Shown: piece by piece, positions 119-31,956 of the stretch
Layout of the letters: every line of letters starts with the position of its first letter
Position numbering within the stretch: position 1 is the first letter of the stretch
The notes under the pieces: generated by a model
Seen by the model: only the letters and a program-made list of their open reading frames with translations
Told to the model about the DNA's origin: nothing
The model's database searches: none
Assembly: GCA_023488565.1 (NCBI GenBank)
Contig: JAMDDZ010000086.1
Location: forward strand, 1 to 33,581
Source: Bacillota bacterium
Lineage (GTDB): Bacteria > Bacillota > Sulfobacillia > Sulfobacillales > Sulfobacillaceae
Length of the DNA: 33,581 nucleotides
Direction: 5' to 3'
Position numbers and translations under genes: made by a program

Positions 119-1547
119 CCTCGTCTCCTCCACCTGTTACCCCAGGCGTCCCGTCCGGGACGCGGCTGTCTTTAGGTGCAAGGACCAATCTAGCCTTACC
201 AAGCGCAACAGTCCTGTTAAAGTCCTATTGAAGTGACCAGTCTTCGCATTCCCGCCGAGTTATGTTGTCTCGTGCGGTACTTCGCTACTATTCCGGCCTC
301 CGACTCCCTGTCCCACCCGTTGGTGGGGGTTTGGCGGTCATCGCATTGCCCTTCTTTTTGAACCACCGGACCAGACAGGGTCTCACCGGGTCAGTCGCCT
401 CTCTTTCTCTCGGTGCAATCCGTAACCACCCCCCAGGGGTCCGTTGCGGTGCTGCTCGTTCCAATCTCGCTCTCGGGAGTGATACCCTATTAACCGCCAC
501 GGCAGAGGGCTTCGCCCAGATCACGAGGGCTCGCCACCCACTGAAGGCCACCCCTGGTTCATTTGCATTACAGCCCCGAGATTTGCCTCAGTCGAGTAGC
601 TCACAGGCGCCGTGGTGTAGGTGACGCTCGCTCCGTTGGCCGTCCCTTTCGGTTGACGGTGCCTCAGCGCGTCCCCCTGCCCGATTTCCTGCAGGCTCTC
701 TAAAATTCCGTACGGTCGGTTTTCCCGAATACGGCTTCAAACGACCACTCCACCCGAAATCTGCCTCGTCGGGGCCAAGGCTTAAAGGCACCCGCCTATC
801 CGCCCCAGCCCGCCGAGTTGGTTCCGACCTACGGGTAGCCCTACGAGGCCGCGGTCCTCAAGCCGAAGCTTTTGCCACGACGGCGGGTACCATGGGTCGT
901 CCACGGGTCCTTTCCTCGCCGGCGGTTATGTTGTCCGCCGAGTCCTCAGTACTACAACCCGATGCGTCAGGCTCGACGCCACCTCCCGATTTCGCGCTCT
1001 ACGCTTATACGGGCGGCCATGCCTTTCGCGGGTGCTCCAAGCGGGCCTCGAGTCCTTCCCTGCTTTGCCAAGATGTCCTTACACCATGCCGCCTCCCTTA
1101 CGCCGGAAGGACCATCCGGTGCCCATTCCCATCGCTTCCCGAATGGTACCAGTCTTCGCCTGTGGGTCCGAGGCTCGACTCCCTTCATCGTTCCCGTTAG
1201 TCAGATTTCACGGGGAATCTTTCGACGCAGCAGAGATCACTTAATGGTACGGCCTGGCCTCTGGCTAGCCCCTCCGTCTGACCTCGCCTTTCAGCGAACA
1301 GGGACATTATCTTCGCGGCTTTCACCGGATGGGTCACCCCCTTCCGATGCGCGATTTGCTACGTGGCCGAATGGGAAGTTGCCACGGCCGGACTTGCGCC
1401 GGCTGGATATCCTAGGTTACAGGCTGCACGGCCCACCAGATTCCGAATTACTTCGGACACCCTACCACTATTGGCTACCCCACTTGAACGAGGAAACTAG
1501 CAGGGACTAGACTTTCACTTGCAAGAGAGGCGACCTGCCGGTCGCAC
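1..1547 (-). mobile_element. Group II intron, 5' portion (ribozyme domains plus start of intron-encoded protein), truncated by window edge
   Basis: Minus strand begins GTGCGACC (5' consensus GUGYGAC) at 1547. It continues with structured, ORF-poor GC-rich sequence and is followed by an ORF starting MQTRKWYSLADKVWDPCNLAKAVAAVVANGGAPGIDHIS, typical of LtrA-like IEP N-termini. Confidence 0.85.
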
Positions 1548-7461: not shown

Positions 7462-8121
7462 ATGAAGGGGGTTAACCCATTGGATGAAGCCCTAGACAAG
7501 ACTCCGGGAGGGCCCGAGGAAGAATTGCCAAATTGGAGCCGCCGACAGTTTTTGCTAGGCACCACTGGACTGGCGGTGGCTGGGGCCGCTGCGCTGTGGA
7601 CACGTACCCCGATTGTCGATGCGGCGCGGGCCATTTTCGGGTCACCAGTTGATACGGGACTGGTTCATGTGTACCAAGAAGATTTTTATTTTGTGCCTAA
7701 TTACATGACGTGGCGCGTAGGGGACAAGATGACCATGCGGTTGCAAAACATGAGCTTGACGCGTTACCACGAAATGCAAATTGGCCGTCACGTGAGTCGT
7801 GAACAGACAATATTTGGCACACTGACCGCTGACGGTTTTACTGAAGATTTTTGGGACGGGGTTCCTGTGACATTCAGCAATCCCTACAAGATGGACAACC
7901 TGGTTTACAGCAAGGCAATCCCCACCTTTATCGGTCCAAAGTCGGATTATTTGATCGAATATGGAGGGGCATTGAGTCCGACCCTGAAACCGGGTGGCCA
8001 TATCGATCTTACCTTTGTGGTACCTGACAAGCCCGGAATTTGGCAATATGGGTGATTTGTTCAATATGCCGCCCATTGGCGGTTTGGGATGCGTGGCGTC
8101 CTAAATGTGATTAAAGCGTAA
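7462..8121 (+). CDS. Tat-exported cupredoxin-like protein with in-frame TGA at 8053-8055 at the expected Cys ligand
   Basis: Tat signal SRRQFLLGTTGLAVAGAAAL. His ligand region LTRYHEMQIGR. ...PGIWQYG-[TGA]-FVQYAAHWRFGMRGVLNVIKA* gives His and Met at X-X6-H-X4-M. No other Cys in the ORF. Confidence 0.7.
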
Positions 8122-8187
8122 ACCAGTATAAGGAATTTCAACAGTTCATCGGTAGCGGAAATATTCAGTGGGGAGGGAGTGCCTCCG

Positions 8188-9009
8188 ATGGGAAGCGTGT
8201 TGGTGTTTGGGCTATTATGGGTCGTCATTTCTCTATTAGGGGAATGGGGGGCTACAACCTGGATTAATTCGGCTCCTGATGGCACTGGACCATATTTTGG
8301 GACGGCTTCCAATCTTGGCGTTATTGGAGCCCATGCCTTCGATTTTCTTGTGTGGGTTGCCGTACCCATCTTTGTGTTTGTTGTATTGATGATTATTTTT
8401 GCGATGATTAAATTCCGCGCTAAGCGTGGAGAAAAAGTCATTGACGCTCCGAAACAAACGCGCAACAACAAAGTATTTGTCGGTTCTTGGATATTGATTA
8501 GTATTCTGGTAAATCTGCTTGTATGGCTGCACCCTAACGCAAGTGGGTTAGAGCAAGTATTCGCGGCGCAATTGCCGGCCAACAACCCCAATCCTTTGGT
8601 AGTCGACGTTACAGCACGCCAATGGGAATGGATATTCAGCTATCCACAGTACAACATTACGCAATCGCTAAACGCAAACGGACAGGATACTTTATACCTT
8701 CCGGTTGACCGGCCTGTCAAATTTGTACTACGGTCCTATGACCCATTTCACACCTATGATACTGCAATCGATGTCATTCATGGATTCTGGATTCCGGCAT
8801 TTGGGGTCAAATATGACGTGATTCCCGGCGAGACTCGGGTGATCTATATAACGGCTACCAAATTGATTTCGACTGAACAAAACCCTATGGCCCGGGTGCA
8901 GTGCTCCGAGGTGTGTGGGCCGGGACATCCATATATGGAAGCTAACCTACACGTGGTAACGGGCTTGGCGTTTGCGAAATGGGCCAAGCAACAGGCATCG
9001 AGATCGTAA
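8188..9009 (+). CDS. ctaC: Cytochrome c oxidase subunit II (CuA)
   Basis: CuA motif CSEVCGPGHPYM. TARQWEWIFSYP and DVIHGFWIPAFGVKYDVIPG. RBS GGAGGG before ATG 8188 (the ORF track begins at a GTG at 8179). Confidence 0.93.
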   Translation: MGSVLVFGLLWVVISLLGEWGATTWINSAPDGTGPYFGTASNLGVIGAHAFDFLVWVAVPIFVFVVLMIIFAMIKFRAKRGEKVIDAPKQTRNNKVFVGSWILISILVNLLVWLHPNASGLEQVFAAQLPANNPNPLVVDVTARQWEWIFSYPQYNITQSLNANGQDTLYLPVDRPVKFVLRSYDPFHTYDTAIDVIHGFWIPAFGVKYDVIPGETRVIYITATKLISTEQNPMARVQCSEVCGPGHPYMEANLHVVTGLAFAKWAKQQASRS

Positions 9010-9066: not shown

Positions 9067-10944
9067 ATGGCACAACCCTTGCCCAAAGGTCAAATGGCGT
9101 CCATGCCAAAACGGATCGCCCCATGGCCTCCGGTATTAAGAGCCTTTCTGTGGGCAGGCATTGGTTTTGTGGTTTTAGCGGCAATCGCCGCCTGGCTTGA
9201 TCCCAGTCCCAATAGTCCTTATTTAACTGCAGTGGGATCCGTCGCTGGGTGGTTTGGGGCTTTGATCGGATGGCTTTTAGGAATTGGGGGCTATGATTAT
9301 ATTGTGCGTCCAATGATGGGGTACCCCACGCCTCGAGTACGAACGTCGGGCTGGCGGAGATATTACGAGTATGCCTTGGATCATAAGGTGATCGGCCTCC
9401 AATACTTAGGGGCTTCCACCGGGACTTTTTTGGTTGCGGGTCTTATCGCGATGGCCATGCGGTTTCAACTGATGAACTATCAGCCAACGTTATTTCATTA
9501 CCCCGAGGATTACCTCAACGCGGTGGGGATTCATGGTACTTTAATGATGTTCACAGTGGCTACCGTTGCCATGGTAGGCGGACTGGGAAACTACTTCGTA
9601 CCGTTGATGATTGGTACCCGCGAAACCATGTTCCCCAAAGCCTCCGGAATTTCTGTATGGCTGGTTCCCATTGGGGTGCTTACGATATCCATGTCGCCGT
9701 TGCTGGGACAGTGGAGCACGGGGTGGCGCGGGTATGAACCCTTGGCGGCCTCGGACGGCAGCGGGTTGCTTTACTACTATCTCGGGGTGTTTGCCCTAAC
9801 CACCTCTTCATTGATTGTAGCCATTAATCTTACCGCAACAATCCTATTTAAACGAACCAAAGGAATGACATGGAATCGGTTGCCCTTGTTCGCTTGGGGC
9901 ATTTTAACCGTGTCCCTTCTCAACATTATCTGGCTGCCAGAAATACAGGCTACGTTCATATTGGGAATGTTGGACAAGGTGATGCCACTAAACTTGTTTA
10001 ACGTGTTTGGGCAACCTCTAGGGTATGAGTACTTGTTCTGGCTATTTGGCCACCCTGAAGTCTACATCGTCGTGATTCCGGCTTTGGCTATTTGGAACGA
10101 GATCCTGCCTGTTATGGGCCGGAAATCCCTATTTGCACGCCCCATTGCGGTGCTGGGGCTAGTGTTCGTTATGCTATTGTCAGGGATGGTTTGGGCGCAT
10201 CACATGTTCACAATGATGCGTTTTAGCGAGATGCTGCCATTCTCGTTTTTTACCGAGATGATTTCAATTCCGACGGGATTTGCTTACTTGGCTGCCATCG
10301 GAACACTATGGAATTCCCGGTTGCGGATCACAACACCAACCCTCTTAGTATTGATGAGCATGTTTAATTTCCTGATTGGTGGCCTTACCGGCTTATTTCT
10401 TGCGGACGTTCCGGCTAACCTGCAACTCCACAATACATTTTTTGTGGTGGGCCACTTTCACTACACCATTATAGGCGGTATGGTGTTTAGCTGGATGGCG
10501 GCTATGTATTACTGGTTGCCCAAATTCTCCGGGCGCACTTACAGTGAGTTTTGGGGCAAATTGGGCGCAATTTGGGTATTCATTGCTTTTAACGCTACGT
10601 TTCTTAACTTTTTCATTCTGGGATTGCACGGCATGAACCGATGGGTTAGTGCCTATCCCAAATATCTGCAACCGGAGAACTTTTGGACGTCAATTGCGGC
10701 ATTCTTTTTGGGTGCAGGTTTTGGGATTAACATCATTCACATCGTGTGGGCATGGATCAAAGGTCCAAAAGTTAAAGAAAATCCTTGGGATGCCAAGACC
10801 TTGGAGTGGCAGACGAGTTCTCCGCCCCCTGCCAAGAATTTCGATGTATTGCCTGAAGTGGTGGGGAGTTTCTACACCTATGGTGATAATGTTCCCGATC
10901 CGGTAGTTATTCCCTCGGTGCAGGAACAAACGCCAGGACTGTGA
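9067..10944 (+). CDS. ctaD: Cytochrome c oxidase subunit I
   Basis: Heme/CuB motifs GIHGTLMMF, GHPEVYI, WAHHMFT, VVGHFHYT. Confidence 0.95.
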   Translation: MAQPLPKGQMASMPKRIAPWPPVLRAFLWAGIGFVVLAAIAAWLDPSPNSPYLTAVGSVAGWFGALIGWLLGIGGYDYIVRPMMGYPTPRVRTSGWRRYYEYALDHKVIGLQYLGASTGTFLVAGLIAMAMRFQLMNYQPTLFHYPEDYLNAVGIHGTLMMFTVATVAMVGGLGNYFVPLMIGTRETMFPKASGISVWLVPIGVLTISMSPLLGQWSTGWRGYEPLAASDGSGLLYYYLGVFALTTSSLIVAINLTATILFKRTKGMTWNRLPLFAWGILTVSLLNIIWLPEIQATFILGMLDKVMPLNLFNVFGQPLGYEYLFWLFGHPEVYIVVIPALAIWNEILPVMGRKSLFARPIAVLGLVFVMLLSGMVWAHHMFTMMRFSEMLPFSFFTEMISIPTGFAYLAAIGTLWNSRLRITTPTLLVLMSMFNFLIGGLTGLFLADVPANLQLHNTFFVVGHFHYTIIGGMVFSWMAAMYYWLPKFSGRTYSEFWGKLGAIWVFIAFNATFLNFFILGLHGMNRWVSAYPKYLQPENFWTSIAAFFLGAGFGINIIHIVWAWIKGPKVKENPWDAKTLEWQTSSPPPAKNFDVLPEVVGSFYTYGDNVPDPVVIPSVQEQTPGL

Positions 10945-31699: not shown

Positions 31700-31774
31700 T
31701 GGTGGGCACGACAGGTATCGAACCTGTGACCTCTTGCGTGTGAAGCAAGCGCTCTACCACTGAGCTACGCGCCC
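31700..31774 (-). tRNA. tRNA-Val (CAC)
   Basis: Cloverleaf on minus strand GGGCGCGTAGCTCAGTGGTAGAGC..CTTGCTTCACACGCAAG..GGTTCGATACC..CCA encoded. Confidence 0.95.
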
Positions 31775-31796
31775 ATTTTGGTTTGCGGTACACGGC

Positions 31797-31871
31797 TGGT
31801 GGGCCCAGAAGGATTCGAACCTCCGACCAACCGGTTATGAGCCGGCAGCTCTACCGCTGAGCTATGGGCCC
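31797..31871 (-). tRNA. tRNA with CAT anticodon (Met or Ile2)
   Basis: GGGCCCATAGCTCAGCGGTAGAGCTGCCGGCTCATAACCGGTTGGTCGGAGGTTCGAATCCTTCTGGGCCCACCA. Confidence 0.93.
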
Positions 31872-31879
31872 AAAAATAA

Positions 31880-31956
31880 TGGCTCCTCGAGCAGGACTCG
31901 AACCTGCAACCACCCGGTTAACAGCCGGGTGCTCTACCAATTGAGCTATCGAGGAG
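31880..31956 (-). tRNA. tRNA-Asn (GTT)
   Basis: CTCCTCGATAGCTCAATTGGTAGAGCACCCGGCTGTTAACCGGGTGGTTGCAGGTTCGAGTCCTGCTCGAGGAGCCA. Confidence 0.95.

Follow-up and report, generated by a model that had tools for sequence, protein, structure and literature searches.

A candidate selenocysteine form of the cupredoxin AcoP encoded beside cytochrome oxidase genes in the Sulfobacillaceae

Introduction

A contig of a Bacillota bacterium from the family Sulfobacillaceae (JAMDDZ010000086.1, whose 33,581 nucleotides we refer to as the window) carries, next to genes for a cytochrome oxidase, a cupredoxin-like frame with an in-frame TGA at the codon where a copper-binding cysteine would be expected. Does this codon end the protein, or is it read as an amino acid? 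A first-pass annotation, made from the sequence alone, had proposed a selenocysteine (Sec) or otherwise recoded blue-copper protein, and had named as checks the state of the codon in homologs, the presence of sel genes, and the presence of disabling mutations in relatives. We have followed up that proposal by comparative analysis of the gene, its relatives, and the Sec machinery of the genomes that encode them.

Results

The reading frame and its product

Translation of the frame confirmed that the annotated ORF stops at TGA 8053-8055 and that the same forward-strand frame runs on to TAA 8119-8121, with the TGA as the only stop before that point (context PDKPGIWQYG-TGA-FVQYAAHWRFGMRGVLNVIKA; Table 1). 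Read through, 7462-8121 encodes 219 amino acids with the TGA as residue 198. The protein has no cysteine anywhere, and relatives have cysteine at the aligned position, so that the TGA does lie at the copper-ligand cysteine, as had been proposed. Gene finders that treat TGA as a stop will truncate such a gene, as happened in the plain ORF list here, and it is therefore easily missed.

Table 1. Features of the acoP-like locus and of the remainder of the window
Feature	Positions	Strand	Basis
Group II intron D1-D4-4, near the window start	1242-1405	-	Rfam match, 68.6 bits
Gene for an AcoP-like cupredoxin, 219 aa if TGA is read as the predicted Sec198	7462..8121	+	AcoP homolog (PDB 7z3b, E 3.5e-26)
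Twin-arginine-type N-terminal signal/anchor WSRRQFLLG..., W25-W46	7534..7599	+	Motif and Tat model matches
His103-Glu104 (CAC GAA); His103 is predicted to be the N-terminal copper ligand	7768..7773	+	Invariant in 21 aligned members; aligns with AcoP His
In-frame TGA where the type-1 copper ligand Cys is expected; predicted to encode Sec	8053..8055	+	TGA in 5 assemblies; TGC/TGT in other members read
Hairpin 1, GCCGCC-CATT-GGCGGT (alternative register TGCC-GCCCATT-GGCG)	8068..8083	+	TGA genes show constraint at synonymous sites
His205, equivalent to AcoP H166; predicted to bind copper	8074..8076	+	Member alignment and AcoP alignment
Hairpin 2, GGGATGC-GTG-GCGTCCT, candidate SECIS	8086..8102	+	Loop 8093-8095, 37 nt after UGA; in all TGA genes
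Met210, predicted axial copper ligand (= AcoP M171)	8089..8091	+	Member alignment and AcoP alignment
coxB, in the same cluster; subunit II (CuA) of the cytochrome oxidase	8179..9009	+	Locus gene list
ctaD/coxA (cytochrome oxidase subunit I)	9067..10944	+	Locus gene list
Three-gene tRNA cluster	31703-31955	-	

Searches of the protein against Pfam and NCBIfam returned no cupredoxin match, the NCBIfam hits being Tat-signal models only. The N-terminal WSRRQFL is nearly invariant in the alignment of 21 members; the Pfam TAT match to this region is weak, and for the NCBIfam Tat model TIGR01409 the G007 ortholog (L003) scores above the cut-off and the window protein below it. The relationship to AcoP was found through a sequence search of the PDB and a fold search. 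A profile of the 21 members matched AcoP of Acidithiobacillus ferrooxidans at E 3.5e-26 over two aligned stretches, and its Cys-X6-His-X4-Met segment aligned with 'GCFLQTGQHFMNGM' of AcoP. An AlphaFold model of moderate confidence (mean pLDDT 71.7) gave best PDB fold matches in Foldseek that were all AcoP (E 4e-11, TM 0.78 by target).

The ligands proposed for AcoP, H85 and C159-X6-H166-X4-M171 (PMC4059628), have as their equivalents in the window protein H103, position 198, H205, and M210. These four positions are invariant in the alignment, with UGA at 198 in five TGA genes. The C-terminal ligands that the first-pass annotation had recognized are thus present, and their spacing is adjusted to Cys/Sec198-X6-His205-X4-Met210, which is the spacing of AcoP. 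From the sequence and fold matches we assign the protein as a homolog of AcoP, a single-domain cupredoxin of the kind associated with cytochrome oxidases. The label "blue copper" is too general for an AcoP homolog, given that the AcoP of A. ferrooxidans is a copper protein of the green type; it maintains the activity of cytochrome c oxidase and may be an electron carrier (PMC4059628). The window gene resembles AcoP (PDB 7z3b/7z3f) in sequence, fold, ligand set and spacing, and placement in a cytochrome oxidase cluster, and differs from it in having UGA for the ligand Cys codon and a Tat-like N-terminus. Cys-type AcoP homologs adjoining oxidase genes in Sulfobacillus have already been listed (PMC4059628).

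As had been noted from the sequence, the gene is directly upstream of coxBA, and at every ortholog locus examined it is followed closely by coxB, ctaD, a subunit III-like gene, and ctaB.

TGA and cysteine codons among relatives

We searched 34 genomes of the same family and 154 genomes of the class, and found ten orthologs and many paralogs. Five of the orthologs have TGA at this codon (G000, which is the window genome, G005, G023, G025, and G026), and the other five, close relatives among them, have TGC or TGT (G031, G007, G008, G029, and G021); all paralogs that were read have Cys at the aligned position. The TGA form spans three genera of the family, namely that of the window and two more. 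It is found in a cultured type strain, Sulfobacillus harzensis DSM 109850 (G023; NZ_JABBVZ010000001.1, with a coverage of 111 given in the contig name), and in the metagenome assemblies JAJZZA, JAJZBJ, and JAJZAN (G005, G025, and G026). Full-length orthologs and paralogs from the family and class searches had no stop at any other codon, and the check for disabling mutations in relatives likewise found none. Recurrence of TGA at one codon in five of ten orthologs, with no other stops, is far beyond chance. No further TGA members came from a wider search across 399 genomes belonging to the phylum.

In a protein tree built with this codon masked, UGA genes and Cys genes are intermingled, a pattern often seen with selenoproteins, and at least four changes are counted, at least two of them forced by well-supported branches, in an unrooted count that carries no direction of gain or loss. 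The Cys gene of G029 is placed among UGA genes of the same genus and retains both hairpins described below; it looks like a recent return to Cys from UGA.

Four of the five TGA genomes, all but that of the window, also carry a Cys paralog, and because of this the TGA gene need not be essential there. At three loci (L137, L138, and L194) a Cys acoP paralog was seen besides the UGA acoP-cox cluster, and at L137 and L138 it is accompanied by its own cox genes. With two acoP-cox sets, the choice between oxidases is possibly selenium-dependent.

Selection downstream of the UGA

The codons after the UGA are under purifying selection, like the upstream part of the gene: among UGA genes pN/pS is 0.178 downstream and 0.189 upstream, as low after the codon as before it, and the downstream part is therefore unlike sequence that follows a real stop. 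Synonymous divergence over the 18 codons after the UGA was 0.386 in the TGA genes against an upstream mean of 0.725, with 0 of 156 upstream windows lower, whereas the same 18 codons in the Cys genes gave 0.718 against 0.821 upstream, with 4 of 156 windows lower; given overlapping windows and related genes, these and the following window figures are statements of rank and not formal probabilities. Codon identity at sites with the same amino acid was 0.731 after the UGA in the TGA genes, compared with an upstream maximum of 0.643 (0 of 157 windows), and was 0.421 after the aligned codon in the Cys genes. Codon choices that are invariant after the UGA in UGA genes include GCC (codon 5), GGG (11), CGT (13), and GGC (14). 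This synonymous constraint, present in the TGA genes only, is in agreement with a SECIS.

Candidate SECIS hairpins

Published rules for bacterial SECIS elements specify a loop of 3-9 nt, a stem of 4-16 bp, a G in the first two loop positions, a distance of 16-37 nt from the UGA, and an MFE <= -7.5 (PMC13188914). The hairpin CCGCC-CATT-GGCGG that had been noted at 8069-8082 is present and can be extended to 8068-8083 (hairpin 1), but a stable second hairpin (hairpin 2) had been missed. In the alternative register of hairpin 1 that is common to all UGA genes the loop lies 15 nt after the UGA; set against the rules, the hairpin is 1 nt too close and lacks a GG/GU loop. Hairpin 2 (GGGAUGC-GUG-GCRUCCU in the UGA genes), with a GUG loop, 6-7 bp, a distance of 37 nt, and -8.7 to -10.8 kcal/mol, falls within all of the rules, its spacing being at the far limit. 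In the TGA genes it is stabler than most synonymous recodings (one-sided p 0.003-0.08 per gene), and it is absent from three of the five Cys orthologs (G007, G008, and G021).

By sequence and predicted folding, neither hairpin appears to be a textbook SECIS, and hairpin 2 fits the published rules better than hairpin 1. A SECIS role would rest with one of these two candidates; our guess is that hairpin 1, if folded, would shorten the path to hairpin 2.

Selenocysteine machinery and tRNAs

The sel genes were found in all of the TGA genomes, in differing completeness. G005, G023, G025, and G026 have the full set of selA, selB, selC (tRNA-Sec(UCA)), and selD. In the window genome, which is 71.5% complete, selB and selD were found, and this selD carries an in-frame UGA of its own, within the motif KSG-U-GCKLGPEDL; for UGA calls in selD we used only rows with the motif KSG-stop-[GA]CKLGPE, out of fourteen loci. 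Rfam and direct DNA searches of this 71.5% complete assembly for tRNA-Sec found no intact selC, and selA was not found in it. Its contig C100 has 71 nt from the 3' part of a tRNA-Sec, with the 5' half missing; this piece does not fold as a tRNA and was therefore not counted as selC. Fragments of this kind, 71-72 nt long, were seen at L243:1501-1571, L251:1501-1572, and L244:1501-1571, and G031 has both a 3' piece and an intact copy; the fragments probably mark attachment sites left behind by elements that insert into selC. Two genomes of the window's genus, G030 and G032, have selA, selB, and a UGA-containing selD, and tRNA-Sec was not found in them at 93-94% completeness, reflecting either an assembly gap or an element that interrupts selC. 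Two assemblies have two different tRNA-Sec(UCA) genes each (G029, L035 and L082; G026, L048 and L084), which would be either a second selC or contamination.

Because a UGA-containing FdhA gene with an E. coli-like hairpin and a GGUCU SECIS loop is present in G005, G023, G025, and G026, as well as in three Cys-form genomes, this clade does make use of Sec decoding. For S. harzensis, a tRNA census that is close to complete gave about 61 predictions, and 63 tRNAs are reported in the species paper (PMC8489842). The sole UCA anticodon in the census belongs to tRNA-Sec, all tRNA-Trp have CCA, and tRNA-Cys has GCA; no tRNA-Cys with a UCA anticodon was found in this one genome.

Many genomes of the family also have long, tRNA-Sec-like tRNA-Cys(GCA) genes of the selC* type (L054, L055, L083, L085-L091, L093, and L094), which in S. 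harzensis stand beside a normal tRNA-Cys. The hosts of selC* tRNA-Cys have been described as anaerobic bacteria (PMC7609411), unlike the family genomes here, which are those of aerobic acidophiles.

Alternative explanations

We consider insertion of selenocysteine at UGA 8053-8055, yielding a selenoprotein form of AcoP, to be the best explanation and a highly probable one. The original proposal of a Sec cupredoxin is supported by the recurrence of the UGA, the Sec genes, the absence of disabling mutations, and the purifying selection downstream. An ordinary Cys cupredoxin would be made if Cys were inserted at the UGA by a specialized tRNA-Cys(UCA), an opal tRNA of the selC* type such as is known from other bacteria (PMC7609411). 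Long tRNA-Cys genes of this type do exist in the family, in the same genomes as the TGA cupredoxin, but every one that was read differs from the opal form in having a GCA anticodon, and because of that anticodon they do not decode UGA; the only UCA tRNA found in S. harzensis is tRNA-Sec, and a constrained region resembling a SECIS is present in the UGA genes. We regard decoding as Cys as very unlikely.

The TGA could also be a nonsense mutation in a gene that is decaying or yields a truncated product, with a Cys paralog doing the work. Outside the window genome, every UGA genome does have such a paralog, and in the two that were examined it is accompanied by cox genes of its own, yet the stop occupies an identical position across three genera with no other lesion, purifying selection acts on the codons after it as strongly as on those before it and synonymous sites there are under extra constraint, and truncation would cost two copper ligands and the last strand; we judge this very improbable. 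A sequencing or assembly error might be suspected from the fact that, of the five UGA sequences, four come from draft assemblies (the window is one of these four, and the other three carry the label MAG). The TGA is no base-call error, however, because the same codon is present in five separate assemblies, one of them of a cultured type strain at about 111x, and this recurrence rules the idea out, the chance that we would still assign to it being negligible. Global reassignment of UGA, for instance to Trp or Cys, had been thought unlikely from the outset and is refuted, its remaining probability being just as minute: UGA terminates family genes of the clade, such as the G029 ortholog and several paralogs, the aligned residue is Cys and not Trp, and tRNA-Trp in S. 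harzensis is CCA only.

Discussion

We propose that the gene encodes a selenoprotein AcoP which would be Tat-exported or membrane-anchored and would act as the partner of the adjacent aa3-type cytochrome c oxidase. The UGA would be read by the standard bacterial route, in which SelA and SelD make Sec-tRNA-Sec and SelB would deliver it at a SECIS hairpin just downstream. Because position 198 corresponds by homology to the residue that supplies the copper thiolate in AcoP, a copper-selenolate site is predicted: the selenolate of Sec198, in place of the usual cysteine thiolate, would bind mononuclear copper together with His103, His205, and Met210, and the protein may then serve as an electron carrier or as a stabilizer of the oxidase. 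Taking these elements together, we think it likely that the family has a natural copper-selenolate type-1 site in a respiratory cupredoxin, that related species switch between Sec and Cys, that one cell can hold both forms for two oxidase clusters, and that the availability of selenium could decide which of the oxidase partners is functional.

The case resembles the bacterial selenoproteins FdhA and SelD, UGA forms of which occur in the same clade, in that an in-frame UGA stands against Cys in relatives, hairpins follow directly downstream, and the genomes have Sec machinery. It differs in its unusual candidate SECIS, with two hairpins and a GUG loop at 37 nt, and from FdhA in that the metal is Mo/W in an enzyme there, whereas here mononuclear copper in an electron carrier is predicted. 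Replacement of the type-1 copper Cys by Sec in azurin, achieved through protein chemistry, gives a working copper site; Sec azurin is artificial, whereas here Sec is predicted from a genome-encoded UGA. To our knowledge no natural selenolate-copper cupredoxin has been known, Sec as a type-1 copper ligand having been made by chemistry only. Our searches of the open-access literature, deep-Sep included, turned up no natural Sec cupredoxin, although an earlier report that we did not see is possible; NCBIfam has no model for one, and a 2026 review of prokaryotic selenoproteins does not mention cupredoxins.

If the proposal is correct, this would be the first natural Cu-Sec electron-transfer center known to us, and would add a cupredoxin to the selenoproteome. 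The presence of the gene in a cultured organism would then open the question of why evolution would place selenium at an electron-transfer copper site, and, in these biomining acidophiles, it would make the effect of selenium on redox potential and acid stability one that can be asked about.
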